From: Lota lota
Taxonomy: Eukaryota; Chordata; Actinopteri; Gadiformes; Lotidae
Direction of reading: 5' to 3'
DNA: 64,000 nucleotides
Assembly (NCBI GenBank): GCA_026745465.1
Contig: JACYXH010000802.1
Coordinates: forward strand, 2,281,501 to 2,345,500
The notes under the pieces were generated by a model, which saw only the letters and a list, made by a program, of their open reading frames with translations, did no database searches and was not told the DNA's origin. Below are positions 1,641 through 28,776 of the stretch, piece by piece; the stretch's first letter is position 1, and every line of letters starts with the position of its first letter. The translations under genes and the position numbers were made by a program.

Positions 1641-4429
1641 TTTATGAAATTTGTATTTTGCTGTTCGTATGTTATGTACTTTCAACTAGCCACACTATTA
1701 ACGCATGGTTAATCAATTGTGGATCAATTCCGTGTGTAATAAAACAGTGCACAGAAAACTGCTGTGTTCCTATTTTTATTCAATATCACTCAATAACTCA
1801 CAGTAAACTGACAGAAAACAGAAAATTAAATTTAGATGGCGTTTAAACGTACAGATTTGGTGCTTGGCTTTCAGGCGTTTACAACTACCTCTGTTCCAAC
1901 AGTGTACCAAACACACACCGCATCATTGAAGAGACGGAGCGATGGAATCAGAGAGAGAGAGAAACAGGTAGCAGAGAAAGAGAGGGAGCTTTGATTTAGA
2001 CCACGCAGTGAAGTGGACGCTGACCTAATTCCTCGTCCGTCTTCCGGCGGCGGTGCTCATCAGACTGTTTAATACGACACTGGTAAAATATACTGTATAA
2101 CCTAGCTCGCAGCGCAATCAAGTGTTATTCATCTCTTGGCGGTGGTGTTGGTGGTGGTCGCCAATAAGATAATCAACCTTTATGATGTAATGACCCTTGG
2201 ACCCCGGAGGTGAGAGTTAAAGGGTTAACTAAACTACCGGACAGGAACTGTTTAGTTCCCAATAGTGTTTATTTACTCAATGCTATTTGGATACGTTTGT
2301 GAGCTCGTGCATTTCAACATTCACAATACACATTGAAATAACGACAGGCATTGTTTATCTTATAAATTATTATTAGACCATTATTATTATTATTATTATG
2401 TTTATTATATTTATTTATGTAATGTTTTTCGTATCGCTTATTCATTTCTTATTTTGTATCTACGTCTTGAATGGATTTCCATTTATTAACAAGCAGAGGC
2501 ACCAATTGTATTCATTGATCCAAGAAAATGCGTAGCTTTGTCTTATCTTTTTTCTTTTTCTTTTTGAAATCTTTGTAATAATCGTAATAGTTATAGTAGT
2601 GATACAAATAATAATAACGATAATGTATGCTATTTAGTGGAAATGTTAGTCCTACAATCTGACCTACAAGTGTGTACATACATTTCTTAGCATGGGAAGT
2701 CCCATTGTGAATTGAACCAGTAGCCCACAGCTAAAGCCATGCTCCCACAATTGAACAACAGTCCCCCATTGTGAATGTTTGTGAGATTGACAGGGATGTC
2801 TACTCTTGCCTGAAACCTGCCATTAGGTCAGACAGAAGATCTTTTGATTTACTGGTTATCATTCACTTTCGGTGGTAACTTTCTGGCTTCATGGTTTCTT
2901 GAGGTTTCTGACAGCAACACTTTGCTATTATTATTTATATGACCGCCTTGCTTACAAAGTGAATAAATGCTTTAATTATTTGTGACTCAAAGAAGAAAAA
3001 TAGCGATGACATTGTACAGAAAGAGACTTGCTTCCTACCGCATGTCTCTCTCCCTCTCTATTTTTCATTCTGTTACTCTCTCCCTCCTCTCTCCCACCTC
3101 TCTCTATGCCTGCCTCCTTCCCTCTCTCGCTCTTTCACTCTTAACATCTAAGTCTATCTCTCTCTCCCTCCTTTCTCTCTTCCGCTGTATCTCCATCTCT
3201 CTCACTCCCTAATTCACTTTCTGTGTGGGTGCGTGCATGTGTGTGTGTGTTTTGAATGCACAAAGCAAATGAATAGATTATCCCCAACTATGCGGTTGAT
3301 GGACATTTATGAAGTATGTCATTGTGATAATAAATTAACCATAATAATATCCTCTGTCAAAAAAATACAGCAAAGCACTTACGCACATAGAAAACATGAT
3401 GTATGCGTCGCCAGGATTTGTAAAGTAGCAGCAATTACATAATTTACCTGTTCTTTCTAGGTAACTGGGCGGGTCATATCCTAATGGCACCCCAGGTTAG
3501 GGGAGAAATGCTGCTGTATATGGAATGGACTCAGCACTCAGGTTATTTACTAAAAGTGTACGTAATATGTGTCTTTCCATTTCACCTGGGCCCCCCCAAG
3601 TCATCCCAAAAATCGATACACAGCTCCCGAGCACTGAGTAAAACGAAGTAAACATAAAAACAACAGCATCATTCCTAGTGATGGGTGAAGCCCCTCTGTA
3701 AACAGGAACTCTTAGTAGTGGATATGGTGCTCAATGCCACAGATCAACACCTGGGTAATTATATCTTCAAGCAGAGCAGCTCTGAGGACATAGACACGGT
3801 GAGCAACAACAGGGATGTTAAGGTCAACCTTGTGACCAATCCAAACCCAATGCCTGTTCCCTTCTCTCACTCTCACATGGCCCAGAGCTGTGTGTTTGTG
3901 TGTGTAAAATTGTGTCTGTGTGCCTGTGTGTGTGTGTGCATGTGTTTGCTGGCGGAAGAATCGATCACCGGTCATGAATAATGGCTAGGATTTCAGGCTC
4001 ATTTAGCCCCGACTTTAGAATAATCAAATCAATGCGTGCCTTTGTTTTTACCATTTCAACCAGGAACTCACCACCTCAAATCTAGGAATTTGGAGGTGGA
4101 AGGAGATCTGTCTTGATTTAAGGTGTTTTCATGAGTGAAAATGCCAATGTAATTCATGTGTTTTAAACTGGTATAGGCCTATTAAATAGTATACATATAA
4201 CTCTGAATGCTAAATCAGTATAACGATTCAAGTCTCTAATTGTTATGAGAGAACAAAATTCTCAGATATACCGTATGCAGGATGGATACTTTTTAAGATG
4301 TACGTCTGAGTATAGTTCATAGCACAGCAGATATTGTACCCTGCCTTGAATCAATCTAAAATGTGTCCGATTATTTCATTAACAAATTGAATATGTATTC
4401 AAATGGAGTCTAAAATAGAGTCCCCCTTA
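1641..4429. other. Intergenic DNA, no gene seen
   Basis: AT-rich unique-looking sequence. It holds a GA-rich patch near 1951-1990, an ATT-rich patch at 2365-2420, a pyrimidine-rich stretch (CTCTC/TCCC) at about 3040-3210, and a degenerate TG tract at 3885-3945. All open frames are short and lack codon signatures. Confidence 0.5.
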
Positions 4430-4870
4430 AACTTGCAGGGCAACATAGTTCAACTCCCTGCCAAAAGGAACTAGGTTCAATCCCCAATGTCTGCAACTAC
4501 CTAGGTATGTGTTACAATCTGCCTAACCCCTACCTGTCTGAATTCACTGTAGGCCCATTATATCCCTCGTCCCATCAGAAATCCTTACCCCTACCTGAAT
4601 ACACTGTAAATCCCTTTCATCCCCAGTCCCATCAGAAATACTTACTCAAGACTGAAATTCACTGTGTGTTTCCCTTACCTCTTGATCTCTTATGTGGACA
4701 TCTTATGTTGTTTATATTGCTTTGGTATTGCTTTACCATTTCTTTTCTTGCTGTATTTTGTGTTTATATTGCTTGTGTGTTTATTACTATTTATTTATAC
4801 TACATGTTTCTGGCTTGAGTTTAGCAAATTATTTCTTCCAGGATCAATAAAGTAATCTGAATCTGAATCG
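4430..4870 (+). repeat. SINE/LINE-type 3' tail fragment
   Basis: The left part contains a tRNA-SINE-like phrase (ggttcaatccccaatgtctg near 4471-4490). The right part ends in a stretch of the form 'cttccaggatcaataaagtaatctgaatctgaatc' split around 4838-4869, the type of terminal tail I associate with teleost LINE/SINE copies. Two near-identical internal phrases (around 4553-4580 and 4612-4640, both with ccatcagaaat) suggest a short internal duplication. Family assignment is from memory and not certain. Confidence 0.45.
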
Positions 4871-7839
4871 ATCACAAAACAAATCCTGAGAACAATACCA
4901 TCTCTCCAACGGTCTCTTGTTAACTTCTTTTTTCAACATGTGAAACACATTACATTTTCGCTTTGGGTTGTAAAATACCATTACTCTCACTATAATGACT
5001 GCTTGCCTATTTTGAAGTCCTCAAACTCATTGGAACAACAATATACAGACAAAACATATTTTATATATTACGTTACGGGGAAAAATCAAGCTATAATTTG
5101 ACTATTGCAATTTCAATTATTAAGAGACTCAGTAATGCAATCACATTTGGAAATTAATAAAGATATTTTATTTTCCAAGAGGGAAATAGGTTTAGCTCCA
5201 GGGTGATGGGAAATAATACAAATAACTTTGATTATATAGTTTTGCATTGATTCATCATCTCAGTGTTTTCCAGGATATCCATGTATATCTTAGTCTTTCT
5301 AAGTTTATTAGAAATCTGTTCACTCAGTGGGTTCAAATTCACTATAATAGCGACTCATTCAGGTTGACTCTATGGCATTGAAAATATCCACTGTCAGTTC
5401 TTGTAGTATATTTATCAAGTCCGCTTTAACATTTGGGATCCTACAAGGCTGATTTGTTTGTGATTAGTTGTACTAGTCTAAATTATATTTAAATTAGATA
5501 CATGATCACCTACCACCTTTAGTCATTAAACAGACACTTTTGTTAAAAGCAACTAATGGATGAAGCTGAATTCAGATACATGCCATTAAATGGCAGGTAG
5601 GGGTGTTTCTCAACAATGCCTACGTCTTAGGCTGCAGACTTTGGGTATCAAACCCAGTACCCTTTAGCTGAGAGTCGAACTCCCAAGCTATCACAGTATC
5701 CTGCCTTCCTACACCATTGTTCTGACTGGAATAATGTCATTTGTAATGTTTATCACATGAAATATACATATTTCAACAACACAAGTCTCAGATACAGAGG
5801 AAAGGCAAACTGATTAGCTTATTGAAAAAATATCATTAAACATATTATGGGAATTAATTCAGCCACTTTCTAGGTATAATACACTTGCCTGGGAAGTTCA
5901 ATAAAATCCTCGGTAGGCCTATGTTTTAATGATTTCTCATTAAGGCTTTTGAACTCTTCCATCAAAAACACCAACTTAAGTACTTCGGAGAATAACTGTG
6001 TTTCCAGCATAATGACCTTATTAATCAAGTCACTTGAGTTCCTGTCGAAGGGAAACCAAGCTTTAATGACAAATTATAAGTTAAGTACCCATGCAATAAG
6101 TATCCTCAACTGGAAAATCGTTTTTTTTAAACACGATAAATGAAAAACAAATGGACATGATGCACTCATCAGGTGAACGGTCGGTTTGCAAAGCAGGAAA
6201 GACAGAGCGATGTTGCTCATTTTTTTGGTGAAGGAACACGAGGAGTTGGCTCCCTAAAGAAGTCTAATGAAGATGAGCTAAATACTAAAGCTTTGGCCAT
6301 GAATTTGTAATCATTAGTGAGAATACAGGGATATGATCAGGCTATTTAGAATGAGTGCTATTAAGCACTCATTCTATTAAGTGGATTAAAGCTAGGGTGG
6401 GCAATATATTTTAGAAGCATTTTTGTCGTATTTGTTTAAATGCTCTTTACATGCCGACAGCAATCAATAAATCAAATGCTCTGTCAAGATAATGAAAACA
6501 GTTCTGTATCTGTAGCTGTCGCATGCAAGCCTGTCCATTCCAATTTGGCTCATTGTGTTGTATAATGGAGTTGTGGTGTTGTGTGTTGTATGGATTTGTG
6601 GTGTTATGTTTGGTGTTTTATAGGTTTGTAGTGTTGTAGTATGGTGTTAGATTTTTTATCAGTGACAGTTTATGGCATGATACCCCCTGTAGCTAAGGGC
6701 CACGTTGTGCTTCCAGGAACACCGGTAACATGCTTCGTAGCACTTTGGTTCACATTGTCTCGCTCTTATGGCCATTTATCTATAAGCATTATTTCTATGT
6801 GATGGCACAAAAGTAAGATGACAAAGCCAAAGCAGTTCCAGTTTCACGTAGCATTTCACAGCATACATGACGCCACACATCATAACAGATGTTGATCCTT
6901 CCTGTCCCTTGTCTTCCCTTTGTCTCGTTAGTCAAATGTGTTTCAGCTGTGTTCATTATTATTCATGGACGTAAAATCCACCAGGACTTACGAAGGACCG
7001 GCGTAGTATTTGTTTGTATGTGTAATGAGTTTATCAAAGGCCACGACACTAGTACTCCCAGCCTGGAAAATACTGCACATACACACCTTCTTGGTACTAC
7101 TTGAGCCATGCAGGGTGCAATGTTATTTCAAATTGAATTATTTTATCGATCATGTTGTGCATAATCATCACAGCGACGTCTGAGGTGTAGCAAATGCAGG
7201 ACCGGCCTCGCCCTTTCGGCACGATTCCCTGCTGCACGACATTTGTCAAGGCAAGTGTTTCATTTGTGCACCTGAGGGCCGGTGTTTTATAGATGGGGCC
7301 ATATATTAGCCCTTCCTGTCGCTTGTACTCTCCACAGGATCTGCTGTTGCTTAAATTAAACGCTCTCCACTTGTCCAGCCGTCCCGCTTCATTGCTTCTT
7401 CCCATGGGCTGAGTGTTATTAGAGCTAACCTTCACCAGGCAGGGATGTGACGAAACCGCTGCCCGAAGTAAATACAAAACCATTAAAATGACATTGCAGT
7501 GCACCTATTCTCATCCCTTGGTCACGATGCCTGACACGCACATTTGCGCACACACGCACCTACACAATACACACTGCAGCAGCATTTTGGGGTAAATTAG
7601 GGAGGGCCTGTGTTCCTCTATTCTGTGTTTGTGTGTGTGTGAGTGTGTGCTAGGACATGACATCGTGGGTATCATGAGTATAATCAATGATCTTCTTTGT
7701 GTAGCTGACTATGAGAAAACAACGTCTGAAGCCTAACTCATGAAAGAAGAACGGTGAGGTCATGTTCAGCACGCCATCCTGTTTTATACTTGTTTTTTTT
7801 AAGATTTGCTTGTATGTCAAATATGATATTCCACTCCTA
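4871..7839. other. Intergenic DNA with two weak repeat remnants
   Basis: No gene is seen. Positions 5520-5710 look like a reversed tRNA-SINE remnant (phrases such as tatcaaacccagtacc and gagagtcgaactccc). Positions 6389-6500 carry a dispersed repeat (gctagggtgggcaatat, then ttttagaagcattttt) with a diverged inverted relative at about 41395-41455. The rest is AT-rich unique-looking sequence, with a TG-rich stretch at 6550-6650. Confidence 0.4.
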
Positions 7840-8021
7840 ACCCTCTCTGGAAGGAGGGATAACCCACTCTGTGTTCCTTTTCAAGATTTCTTCCTTGTTA
7901 TGAAGGGAGTTTTCTCTTGCCTTTTGGGCTAGGGTTAGGGGTTGTCGTAAATATATCGCCTGTAAAGCCCTTTGAGACTGTTACTGTGATTATGGGCTAT
8001 ACAATTAAAATTGACTTGACT
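7840..8021 (+). repeat. LINE-type 3' end fragment
   Basis: The stretch runs from 'ctggaaggagggat' to a terminal 'caattaaaattgacttgac', a 3' end common to teleost non-LTR retrotransposon copies as I recall them. A second related copy in the opposite direction lies in plek intron 3 (26785-26882); both share the block around 'ccactctgtgttcctt' and 'tcttccttg'. Only the 3' end is present, as expected of 5'-truncated insertions. Confidence 0.6.
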
Positions 8022-8806
8022 GCTCAAGAGTTTAGTGATTGCGTGACACATTTGTTGTGCTGAGAGTAAAATCACTTTCTAAATGTTTACTGAATATCCA
8101 TTTGTTGAATAGCTCTTGTAGCATACACTTTGGATTCTTTATTGGCCACCATCGTGGCTTGTGTGCACCCCTGCATGTTCTGTCGCTTAATTTATTTTCT
8201 GATAGAGCAAACAACATGGAAGCAATCAAAGACTAACTTGCTGAGGTTTTCAAATATGTTGATTTGTATGGGACACATCATCCTCACATTATGAATATCA
8301 TTAGTTCAAAATTATTCTGACTTAGTTATAATGAATGGCGAGACATTGTTTTGGCAGTTTATAAGCAGATTAGATACATAAAACTGCTCAGACAGCGGCT
8401 ATTGCACACAGAAGAGCTTTACTATTTCACAATGTTCAATATTTCACACGTCTAGTTAATCTTAATTGTTCTCTCTCTCTCTCTTTCTCTCGGACATAGG
8501 AGAAGAATCCCTTCTCCTGGGATAGCTGTATAGTGCAGTCGGGTGAGGATACGTAGTATGATGGCAAAGCAACTGATAGTCCAATTAGGCAAATAAGCTT
8601 TCAATAAAAGTCAACAATAGACAGCAGCATCGGCAGAGGACCAAACAATGATTGACATAACAAGTCAGACTCTGATTGACAACGGCAGATAATTGTGGCT
8701 TCGTAAATCACAGACAGTCAGAAAGAGTGGAGAGGGATGTGCTCAGAATTAAACTCAGAACTATGTCAAGAATTAGGTCCTATCACACTATACCCTCACA
8801 CAGGGG

Positions 8807-10396: not shown

Positions 10397-11790
10397 TTAA
10401 TTCCCTGTCTCCTGTCTCCTATGCTTCATCTCTTTCCACTTGATAACAGCTCTGTTAAAATCAAACTGCTTTCGGGGAGAGCCAAGCTCTGAAACCAGAT
10501 TGGGGAGGTTTGTATTACTTAGTGCATTTCTGAATTTAGTTTTGATCCTGTTTTGTGTGCTGAATCCACGTTCACATGACACACTTGCAATTGGTCTGAT
10601 CATAGCTATCTTGATGAGTTTCTGCATTTCAGTGAATACAACACTATGTCCATGCAACACAGTCTCTGTAAACTGTTGAAAGGAAAATGAAGCATACGAG
10701 TCACTGGAGACCATGACTTGCTTCAGCATTGCAAACTCTGACTGAGCTTCTTCTGCACTTGCATTACACGAGAAGTGTATCAGTAGGTTTTCAAGTTTCT
10801 CTGCACTATAGAGAGAGACATTCTCAGAGGACTGTTTTGCCACACTGGCTTTTTTGGATTCCAAAATAGTGAACCATGACAGAATATACATTATATTGTG
10901 TCAACAGGGAATCTTCTATCAATTTCATCTATCAAGGATCCCACATACCTGCTCTTCATGTCATCAAAGGCTGGTTTTTGAGTGTGGACGTCAAAAAACT
11001 TGAGCAATGAGGAATTCCTCTTCTGCAGGGCCATGGTGGACTATTATTTCTCTAAGCGCTTCTTTGGTACCTTAAACAACTGGTTGGCCTTTGGAGAAGT
11101 CCAGATCTCCTCTTTGAAAATGCTTTGAAAGAAGGACCACATGCATTAGTGCATCCTTCATTGTGTGACAGAGGGCCACAAAGTTGAACTGTCTGACAGC
11201 TGTCAGTAGGCCTTTGGCTTTGTCACAGTCCTGGGTGTTGGAGGCAAACATGTGCTCCAGGACATCTCTCAGGGCTTTCGGTGATCTGCACACCACTGAC
11301 ACAGCATTGTGAATCGACAGCCACCAGTGAGGTGGCTGTCAATTCACAATGCTGTATGTAGCTGGGTAAACTTAAATTAGGGCTCATCCAACTGTTTCTG
11401 CAACTCATGCAGCTGTCGGGATGTGGCCTTTCTGTGACTCACCAATTGATGTACAGAAACACTGTCTCCAGCTAACATCTCTGCTCTCTCTTTCTCAAAC
11501 ACTGACTCACTCTTGATATTTATTGTCTGACAGTCTGTAGCACTTTGAATTCATGTGAGAGTTGAAAAATATCTGGTGTCTCTCTCATGAGTTCTTGTTA
11601 CAACACTCACATGTCAATACACTTACACTGCGCAAATACAGTGAATGGGCTGAGCTGCATTCTGCTTTTCCTACTTTGTCATCCTCACTGTTTACTATGA
11701 CTGGTGCTTTTGACAGCATCAAGACTACCATCTGTGCTCATTTCTCTCTGCATTTTACAAACTTCGCAGAGTCGAGCATCTAGAGTTCAC
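10397..11790 (-). pseudogene. Decayed hAT-family transposase (ZNF862-like)
   Basis: On the minus strand this is a broken transposase-like gene read in several frames. From its 5' side: a zinc-finger-like patch (CECCNKN...) around 11560-11620; then WLSIHNAVSVVCRSP and a segment ending VVLLSKHFQRGDLDFSK (about 11080-11335) followed by an in-frame TAA; a shifted fragment FFDVHTQKPAFDDMKSRYVG (about 10905-11015), also ending in TAA; and a C-terminal 164-codon piece (10397-10891). That last piece carries SCERGFSTQNRIKTKFRNAL, the hAT dimerisation signature. In the family this protein cuts and pastes hAT DNA transposons; some relatives are annotated as ZNF862-like. Several frameshifts and stops show it cannot encode an active enzyme. 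The 5' boundary is approximate. Confidence 0.8.
11302..11354. repeat. 24-bp near-perfect inverted repeat inside the hAT relic
   Basis: Left arm 11302-11325 (starts CAGCATTGTGAATCG) and right arm 11331-11354 pair with one mismatch around the 5-nt spacer AGTGA. One arm is the WLSIHNAV coding segment of the transposase, so the other arm is an inverted duplicate of it. Confidence 0.95.
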
Positions 11791-21472: not shown

Positions 21473-21477
21473 CCTGC

Positions 21478-23487
21478 TGTTACACCGTATTCTGTGACCC
21501 ACCGTATTCTGTGACCCCAGGGGTCGCTGTTGCACATTTTCTGCAACATGCACGAGTTTGAAGGCATAAAGTCGTTCATGTGCGGAAACATGCACGAGCT
21601 TCAAAGTAAACATCGTATCGTCATCGCTTTCTCGGGATGGGTTAGTTCGTTTTGTAAAGCCCGTTGAGTGGATAAAGCAAAGAGGTTGATTTGGCTCTGT
21701 GGTGGCACGATGATGACGGGTCCTTCTTTCTTGATGCAAACTTGAATATAGAAACGGTGTTGGTCAATTCTAAACAGCATTTTACACAGTAGCCTATAGT
21801 AGGAAATACTCAAAGGTCAATGAACGTAATTAAATGCTGATTGTTGCTTCTTATGGGGAAAGAAGCAACGTTGATGGATCGTAGTTAACGCCCCGTCCAT
21901 AGTATGTGTCTGTAAAATGATAATCAAAGCAAATGTATTTATAAAGCACATTTGATTACAAAGGGATGGGGGAGAGATGTTTCTTCATTACGAGACTCTC
22001 TCTAATTGCTCAAAGTGTGGTTGTTTTTGTTATAATGCCCACCTTTTTTTTATTACTGCAGTTTATGAAATAATGCCTGTATGGGCGTAAAGTGTGCGTG
22101 ATTGCAGTGACTTGGGTGGATTTGCAGCGTAAGGGTGATTTTAGTGACCTAAGAGCACAATTTTAAAAAAGCCGACAGTATTGCGCCCTGAGTATGGTGG
22201 CCACTGAAGAGGCAGTAGCCTGTGGTTCCAGTGGAAGCACGGCGGGACGAAGCACCCCACAGCATCTGTTTTTCATTTGTCATCCTGTATAATTATTCAT
22301 GTCTGCGATCATCACAGAGTCCACACGCAACAGGAAACCATCCACGGTGGGTCACAATCCATGATAGCTGGCCGTCGTATTCTGTGACCGCACTGTAAAT
22401 GCGATTTTTTTTAACTTAAACCACAACCAAATGTGTTCAGGTCATTTGGCATCCTCATATCTGTATGTGTACAAAATTATTCACGTCTGCAATCATCACA
22501 GAGTCCACACGCAACAGGAAACCAATTACGGTAGGTCACAATCCATGATAGCTGGCCGTCGTATTCTGTGACCCCAACGTAAATGCGATTTTATTTTACT
22601 TAAACCACAACCAAATGTGTTCAGGTCATTTGGCATCCTCATATCTGTATGTGTACAAAATTATTCATGTCTGTGATCATCACAGAGTCCACACGCAACA
22701 GGAAACCATCCACGGTGGGTCACAATCCATGATAGCTGGCCTTCGTATTCTGTGACGTCCCGCCGTGCTTCCACTGGAACTATAGGCTACAGCCTCTTCA
22801 GTGCGCAATACTCAGGGCGCAATACTGTCGGCTTTTTTAAAATTGTGCTCTTAGGTCACTAAAATCACCCTTACGCTGCAAATCACCCAAGTTATTTCAT
22901 AAACTGCAGTAATCAAAAAACGGTGGGCATTATAACAAAAACAACCACACTTTGAGCAATCAGAGAGGGACTCGTAATGAAGAAAGATCTCTCCCCCATC
23001 CACTTGTAATTAAATGTGCTTTATAAATACATTTGATTTGATTAGCATTTTACAGACACATACTATGGATGGGGCGTTTACTACGATCCATCAACGTTGC
23101 TTCTTTCCCCATAAGAAGCAACAATCAGCGTTTAATTACGTTGATTTACCTTTGAGTATTTCCTACTATAGGCTACTGTGTAAAATGCTGTTTAGAATTG
23201 ACCAACACCGTTTCTATATTCACGTTTGCATCAAGAAAGAAGGACCCGTCATCATCGTGCCACCACAGAGCCAAAACAACCTCTTTGCTTTATCCACTCA
23301 ACGGGCTTTACAAAACGAACTAACCCATCCCGAGAAAGCGATGACGATACGATGTTTACTTTAAAGCTCATGCATGTTTCCGCACATGAACGACTTTATG
23401 CTTTCAAACTCGTGCATGTTGCAGAAAATGTGCAACAGCGACCCCTGGGGTCACAGAATACGGTGGGTCACAGAATACGGTGTAACA
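21478..23487. mobile_element. Foldback-type DNA element with ~0.75-kb terminal inverted repeats
   Basis: The 2010-bp element begins TGTTACACCG and ends CGGTGTAACA, and is flanked by CCTGC at 21473-21477 and 23488-23492, a perfect 5-bp target duplication. The left arm is 21478-22248 and the right arm 22757-23487. They pair over nearly their whole length; the left has about 38 bp extra near 22075-22112. Each terminus starts with a doubled 17-bp unit (CACCGTATTCTGTGACC). The core carries 184-bp tandem repeats that contain the same CGTATTCTGTGAC motif. Mirror-image open frames in the arms (21601-21813 minus and 23014-23364 plus) differ by about two residues over a shared 70-codon stretch, showing the arms are nearly identical; they match no transposase. 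No enzyme is encoded, so it is non-autonomous. Superfamily unknown. Confidence 0.9.
22293..22756. repeat. 184-bp tandem repeats in the foldback core
   Basis: Units run 22293-22476, 22477-22660 and 22661-22756 (the last partial, where the right arm begins). Each unit holds a 'ggtgggtcacaatcc' block followed by CGTATTCTGTGAC, at 22376, 22560 and 22744, exactly 184 bp apart. A degenerate fourth unit may precede 22293. Confidence 0.95.
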
Positions 23488-23492
23488 CCTGC

Positions 23493-24519: not shown

Positions 24520-28776
<4,257 letters not shown>

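Follow-up and report, generated by a model that had tools for sequence, protein, structure and literature searches.

Results

The element and its surroundings

The window considered here is the whole 64-kb stretch of DNA that was analysed. Within it, an element of 2010 bp (21478-23487) lies downstream, in gene orientation, of a minus-strand pleckstrin-like gene whose open reading frames (ORFs) fall within 24843-27956 (Table 1). The presence of such a gene marks the window as animal DNA. Elsewhere in the window, an ORF of 167 amino acids (10397-10900, minus strand) carries a hAT dimerisation domain (PF05699, E 2.6e-5) and is, judged by this match, a hAT transposase fragment or a hAT-derived gene. 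Two dispersed inverted pairs tie the 8-kb region to the 27-kb region (8367-8491 with 27921-28045 at 93.6% identity; 7836-7928 with 26792-26883 at 84%) and probably belong to other repeat families.

The element starts with TGTTACACC, finishes with GGTGTAACA and has CCTGC on either flank. Between its arms, 26 mismatches fall in 732 ungapped columns (96.4% identity, the value that the sequence-only reading had left to be computed), and the gaps measure 37, 2 and 1 bases. The flanks match exactly at 5 bp and lose the match at 6 bp; when a 2010-bp interval is moved along the window, 81 of its 61,700 possible positions (0.13%) show a 5-bp match at the flanks. The sole match to the joined flanks is an element-free paralogue on the same contig (C802:1885293-1885317), with 2 mismatches in 25 and 77% identity over a 404-column alignment. 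It holds a single CCTGC and reads straight through it. Thus, the feature in the window is an insertion with a 5-bp duplication, and that duplication is real rather than a misread 4-bp one. What had been proposed from the letters of the window, a transposon of foldback shape whose ends coincide and whose 5-bp duplication is real, was right; the ends, arms and CCTGC flanks described then are confirmed, with the arm limits as now given in Table 1.

Table 1. Features of the element and of its neighbourhood in the window, followed by the parts of the long relative L131 (positions within L131, listed in order and all on one strand, as separate pieces)
Feature	Position	Strand	Basis
Target-site duplication, left copy, CCTGC	21473..21477	.	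Flank comparison; one copy at the element-free paralogue
Left terminal inverted repeat, 772 bp; arm found family-wide	21478..22249	+	Arm alignment; genome matches
Left-end tandem pair of 17-bp units CACCGTATTCTGTGACC; candidate binding sites for the transposase	21483..21517	+	Repeat search
Spacer, apparently with the remnant of one more 184-bp unit	22250..22290	+	Read by eye
Subterminal 184-bp tandem array (units 22291-22474 and 22475-22658, partial unit 22659-22756), terminal motif CGTATTCTGTGAC in each	22291..22756	+	Repeat and motif analysis
Internal-deletion junction, where the array runs straight into the right arm (overlap about 1 bp); neither the transposase gene nor a right-hand array is present	22755..22757	.	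Alignment to long copies
Right terminal inverted repeat, 732 bp, with 37-base deletion common to relative L133	22756..23487	-	Arm alignment
Two tandem 17-bp units, right end	23448..23482	-	Repeat search
Target-site duplication, right copy, CCTGC	23488..23492	.	Flank comparison
Second PH-like ORF	24843-25187	minus	Below Pfam cut-off, E 0.035
DEP-domain ORF	25772-26137	minus	Best match pleckstrin 1w4m, E 5e-22
PH-domain ORF	27531-27956	minus	Best match 1pls, E 2.1e-22
L131: 184-bp array, about 7.5 units	First in order, before 2887
L131: piece with F-P and a later Y, reminiscent of YPYY	2887-3036		By eye; no Pfam match
L131: H2C2 zinc finger (Integrase_H2C2, PF17921)	3154-3420		E 1.3e-12
L131: rve core (PF00665), two D residues	3669-3986		E 1.5e-13
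L131: piece with HPQTNGLVER, supplying E (third acidic residue)	4030-4170		rve_3, E 9.2e-6, just under cut-off
L131: further integrase-like piece	4256-4501		No Pfam match
L131: LGPFRV piece, then low-complexity repeat	4539-5378		Motif by eye; Pfam SH3_Tf2-1 only below cut-off
L131: DSTSCG piece, Ulp1-like	6637-6807		By eye; no Pfam match
L131: PHD finger (PF00628)	7776-7931		E 2.8e-6
L131: partial inverted unit and right arm	Last in order, after the PHD finger

Repeats within the element

Between the arms lies a tandem array of 184-bp units, two full and one partial. The array and the termini have CGTATTCTGTGACC in common, at a score that none of 500 core shuffles reached. With at most one mismatch allowed, the 13-mer terminal motif occurs seven times in the 64-kb window, every time within the element, against 0.04 expected. 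In the core, the inverted terminal motif is weaker than the direct one (score reached by 13 of 500 shuffles).

We reject coding in the arms. No transposase was found in the window copy when four arm pieces were compared with Pfam, none of which gave a match, and an ORF mirrored between the arms differs at nine codons, two synonymously and seven non-synonymously, one of the seven being a stop. The high similarity of this mirrored ORF is no coding signal. Patchy gene conversion between the arms finds no support: of 10,000 permutations, 36% gave a stretch free of mismatches as long as the longest one observed, and 13% as high a bin variance; one post-hoc comparison of two arm stretches alone gave p = 0.014. 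Both arms also hold GTGCTTTATAAATA (21936-21949, minus; 23016-23029, plus), which occurs nowhere else in the window at up to one mismatch. It resembles the tail at the 3' end of fish retroposons, one of which may have been captured in an ancestral arm.

A multi-copy family that prefers CCGG

Genome searches covered the element's own genome, which at 575 Mb and in general look would suit a teleost. To the opening 596 bp of the left arm there are at least 40 near-full-length matches (95-100% identity), counting both arms of the window copy; this is a lower bound, as 40 of 518 candidates were scored. With up to one mismatch, the 22-bp end occurs 151 times forward and 149 times in reverse, 300 times in all, and its reversed control not once. 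There are thus enough ends for some 150 copies. The window itself yielded no second copy. The same ends recur at differing flanks, as in a multi-copy family; further copies with shared ends were what the sequence-only reading had asked of a mobile family. For closer comparison we took 40 stretches of the genome holding relatives (L-numbers below), chosen from the 596-bp arm matches and from closely spaced opposite ends among the first 100 end matches.

CCGG precedes 123 of 230 exact 19-mer ends genome-wide, where about one is expected for random four-base words, the ends being non-independent (two per copy, and duplicated insertions). Reading both ends gave 26 rows, which collapsed to 18 distinct insertions when grouped by same flanks, or 19 with the window copy. 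Thirteen of these 19 have a 4-bp duplication (CCGG in ten; CCAC, CCCC and ATGG in one each) and two a 5-bp duplication (ACCCG in L159 and CCTGC in the window copy). A duplication of either length is absent from L134 (three matching bases), L140/L167, L150 and L158. CCGT or ACGG duplications did not occur among the 19, nor did any of 6 bp. The expectation of copies sharing both exact ends and 5-bp duplications therefore held for the ends; the usual duplication is 4 bp, mostly CCGG.

Several ends depart from the common form. L150 has CCGG one base beyond each end (CCGG-G-TGTT ... ACA-C-CCGG), as if its ends were one base longer. At the right end of L158, CC and a new TGTTACACCG start follow directly, and L131 and L132 have extra or shifted terminal units at their right ends; these three give hints of tandem insertion or end remodelling. 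Some insertions recur with the same flanks on several contigs (L128/L129/L130 on C784, C679 and C678; L147/L148/L155/L161 on C769, C62, C295 and C791). These are segmental duplications or uncollapsed haplotypes, and raw copy counts are thus inflated.

Long relatives carry an integrase-like transposase

Long copies of 7.5-8.9 kb have the same ends and the same arms, the latter about 770-790 bp in L128-L131 and 0.73-0.79 kb across the family. Arms of about 0.75 kb are, on these alignments, a family feature. The long copies carry a transposase in pieces, with an H2C2 zinc finger, an rve core, a GPF motif and a PHD finger (Table 1). The LGPFRV string, a GPY/F motif, was also seen by eye in L128, and the DSTSCG string of L131 looks like a Ulp1 signature. 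In L128-L131 the transposase pieces sit between the left and right 184-bp repeats. Neither reverse transcriptase nor RNase H was found in six frames of L131 2719-7700, the one long copy scanned. These copies are the transposase-bearing relatives with the same ends from which the sequence-only reading had expected a classification.

Eleven of 41 stretches match at least one of the eight transposase pieces significantly, L140 among them with a distant integrase (28% identity). All eight pieces are present and free of stops in L131 and in L128, L129 and L130, which are one insertion by their flanks. L136 has seven pieces and no stops. A single stop is present in each of L141 (seven pieces), L142 and L157 (eight apiece) and L135 (three), and L150 has one fragment. 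The 4.5-kb copy L132 matches none of the pieces; its interior holds an ORF (2793-3065) with a BrkDBD domain (PF09607, E 1.3e-8), which is a capture or a nested insertion.

Origin and age of the window copy

Alignment to the long copies identifies the window copy as an internal-deletion derivative that keeps both arms and part of one subterminal array. Its positions 1-1279 align to L131 1-1291, and positions 1279-2005 to its far end (L131 7709-8474); among the long copies, this second block extends to position 2005 or 2010 of the element. The missing interior comes to 6.4 kb relative to L131, 5.4 kb relative to L128 and 5.8 kb relative to L129. At the junction, ...TTCTGTGAC is joined to GTCCCGCC with an overlap of about one base.

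The closest relative is L133 (2974 bp), with an identity of 99.84% on the left (1280 columns) and 99.46% on the right (734 columns). It has the same 37-base right-arm deletion, and its 184-bp repeats are oppositely oriented on its two sides. Since L133 retains these opposed repeats, the simplest origin for the window copy would be a deletion derivative resembling L133. Within the first 700 bases, the left arms of the window copy and L133 are identical and their right arms 99.7% identical, whereas the window copy's own two arms are 96.8% identical. Left-right identity is 96.0-96.8% in the long copies L128, L129, L131 and L157, and elsewhere runs from 94.8% (L150) to 100% (L134), with 99.4% in L151 and 99.1% in L153; L143 (405 columns) and L149 (9 columns) were set aside as unsuited to this comparison. 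Among the best matches to the window's left arm is the right arm of L132, and among those to its right arm is L132's left arm, a swap that may reflect opposite reading orientation only.

From these comparisons, much of the difference between the window copy's arms was inherited. Arm-to-arm identity therefore neither dates the insertion nor shows homogenisation, and the earlier argument that similar arms make the copy young or homogenised drew on the wrong comparison. Its suggestion of youth fares better by another route: the near-identity to L133 suggests recent movement of the subfamily, and the window copy is probably young.

Discussion

A foldback element that had looked unplaceable can now be classified. 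We consider it very likely that the element is non-autonomous and arose by internal deletion within a Ginger1 DNA transposon family that was amplified recently, an assignment made by domains, ends and CCGG preference. Ginger1 elements have TGTNR ends and arms of about 40-270 bp (PMC2836005). Their 4-bp duplications are CCGG in 75% of cases and CCGT/ACGG in 24%, and their transposases combine YPYY upstream of the zinc finger, H2C2, DDE and GPY/F, with OTU, Ulp1 or PHD additions and often introns (PMC2836005). The element begins TGTTA, with the right end inverted. The family has the CCGG-preferring 4-bp duplication, from which the window copy, taken by itself, departs with its 5-bp CCTGC. The long relatives have the H2C2 finger, the DDE core and GPY/F; L131, the copy scanned, lacks reverse transcriptase and RNase H, and it has a Pfam-matched PHD finger, as in Ginger1-9_HM (PMC2836005), beside the piece that looks Ulp1-like by eye. 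Arms of 732-772 bp in the window copy exceed the published range, which is a range from 2010 and no mechanistic criterion. Because of the 5-bp duplication, the window taken by itself had leaned towards a Ginger2-like or unknown integrase-type element, and the CCGG duplications of the family corrected this. The earlier verdict that no superfamily could be named is thus superseded by the CCGG targets and the integrase-like transposase of the long relatives, while its hint that TGT..ACA ends recall LTR-like integration was apt, as the ends do reflect an LTR-integrase-like enzyme.

Under this Ginger1 reading, long copies would produce an integrase-type DDE transposase that also moves the window copy. 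The enzyme would bind the 17-bp terminal units and may also bind the copies of the terminal motif that the 184-bp array holds. By established integrase-type chemistry, the element would be cut out and joined at CCGG-like sites with a stagger of 4 bp, sometimes 5, and faulty repair may have produced the internal deletion.

Four other explanations were weighed. It is improbable that the ends are moved by another enzyme and that the Ginger1-type gene of the long copies is a captured passenger. More than a transposase fragment is present in only three of the 18 distinct relatives with both ends (the L128 group, L131 and L157), as a passenger might be, and L132 has a foreign DNA-binding ORF instead. 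Against capture, the CCGG 4-bp duplications and TGTNR ends are those reported for Ginger1 (PMC2836005), and the transposase pieces of L128-L131 are enclosed by the 184-bp repeats.

Alternatively, the element could derive from an LTR retroelement, for instance as a pair of LTRs in inverted orientation, or be an integrase-bearing element of the Polinton type. TGT..ACA ends with a 4-6 bp duplication suit integrase chemistry (PMC10045372), and the long copies have H2C2 and rve domains. The terminal repeats, however, are inverted rather than direct, the scanned part of L131 is free of reverse transcriptase and RNase H, targets are preferentially CCGG, and 6-bp duplications are listed for Polintons (PMC10045372). 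This makes such an origin rather less probable again.

We give still less credence to a foldback element moved by a THAP or MULE transposase, whether P-type like Galileo or Mutator-type like Tetris. Such elements have the same non-coding design of long arms and tandem repeats that share terminal-domain sequence, but their duplications measure 7-8 or 8-10 bp rather than 4, sometimes 5, and here the long relatives encode an integrase-type enzyme. For the hAT and Transib superfamilies, the comparison was with end motifs that we presume to be theirs, and with those only. A one-off inverted duplication (palindrome) without any transposon, for which the window speaks only by its want of a further copy and to which an absence of copies elsewhere or copies with differing boundaries would have pointed, is refuted by the other copies, with their 300 matching ends, differing flanks and target duplications, and by the element-free paralogue, and its probability is close to nil.

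Phages, plasmids and viral contigs were searched for the element and nothing was found. A 15-mer scan of genome contigs gave bacterial and archaeal records only, among the matches listed. Given so short a word, we take these matches as chance; the longest alignment of the element to these loci spans 35 columns, among the alignments listed.

The element is real, mobile and correctly delimited, and its long arms, its arrays and the family's mixed 4- and 5-bp duplications are unusual, yet it belongs to a known superfamily. An integrase-type (Ginger1) transposon can thus take on the foldback shape, as can the P and Mutator-type elements of the literature consulted. As the alignments have it, the foldback derivatives here came about when the coding interior was lost from a parent that was already long-armed. 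A wider proposal is possible, although we hold it only tentatively, at somewhat less than even chances: that a vertebrate Ginger1 lineage evolved foldback architecture, with 0.75-kb arms and the terminal motif in 184-bp arrays on both sides, convergently with Galileo and Tetris; that it is driven by an integrase-type enzyme whose stagger switches between 4 and 5 bp; and that it was recently active, has coding copies that may be functional, and is a living relative of the source of GIN1 and GIN2. A vertebrate Ginger1 family that is young and has open coding pieces would allow tests of integrase-like cut-and-paste transposition, and of what the vertebrate GIN genes came from.

Comparison with known systems

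Compared with Ginger1, the family differs in its 0.73-0.79 kb arms, in 184-bp subterminal arrays that repeat the terminal motif and in a duplication that is sometimes 5 bp. The 2010 Ginger1 survey (Bao et al.) found such elements in hydra, Aplysia, lancelet and aphid (PMC2836005). Ginger elements have been counted in teleost genomes (PMC4746887), Ginger1 appears in grayling and sole annotations (PMC6505133, PMC7915175), and relics of Ginger1 have been described from frog, coelacanth, alligator and turtle (PMC9004415). Given the earlier teleost reports, a teleost Ginger1 is not new as such. A Ginger1 with 0.75-kb arms and subterminal arrays was not found described in the parts of the literature searched, Repbase lying outside their scope. 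Further background literature is in PMC3517528, PMC10983969, PMC5753468 and PMC12863088.

In architecture, the nearest likenesses are two foldback elements. Tetris, from Drosophila virilis, has long arms, tandem repeats of about 220 bp that share terminal-domain sequence (37 bp at about 80% common to both) and non-coding copies. It differs in its 8-10 bp duplications and suggested Mutator affinity, its own transposase not having been found in the account drawn on (PMC4079207). Galileo, of the P superfamily, has arms of 765/757 bp in a nearly complete copy, arm-only derivatives and tandem repeats in one extended copy, but 7-8 bp duplications with consensus GTATTAC and a P-type transposase (PMC4168063). 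In Galileo, additional binding sites for the transposase lie in tandem repeats inside the arms (cited in PMC4079207), and we infer that the 184-bp array may be a parallel.

Among integrase-type relatives, Ginger2/TDD (TDD-4, TDD-5) resembles the family in its enzyme, its TGTNR ends and its 4- or 5-bp duplication, but has AT-rich RTATAY targets and no GPY/F motif (PMC2836005). With CCGG targets and LGPFRV here, it is rejected. So are IS3EU, which has a 6-bp duplication and ends that are always TA..TA, and GingerRoot, with 6 bp and ends mostly TA..TA and occasionally TG..CA (PMC10045372), a 6-bp duplication being absent from all 19 insertions. Finally, the Ginger1-derived vertebrate genes GIN1 and GIN2 are alike by description, with an integrase-type protein, a zinc finger and several exons (PMC2836005, PMC3424704). 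They are domesticated, immobile host genes, whereas the family described here is multi-copy and bounded by inverted repeats.
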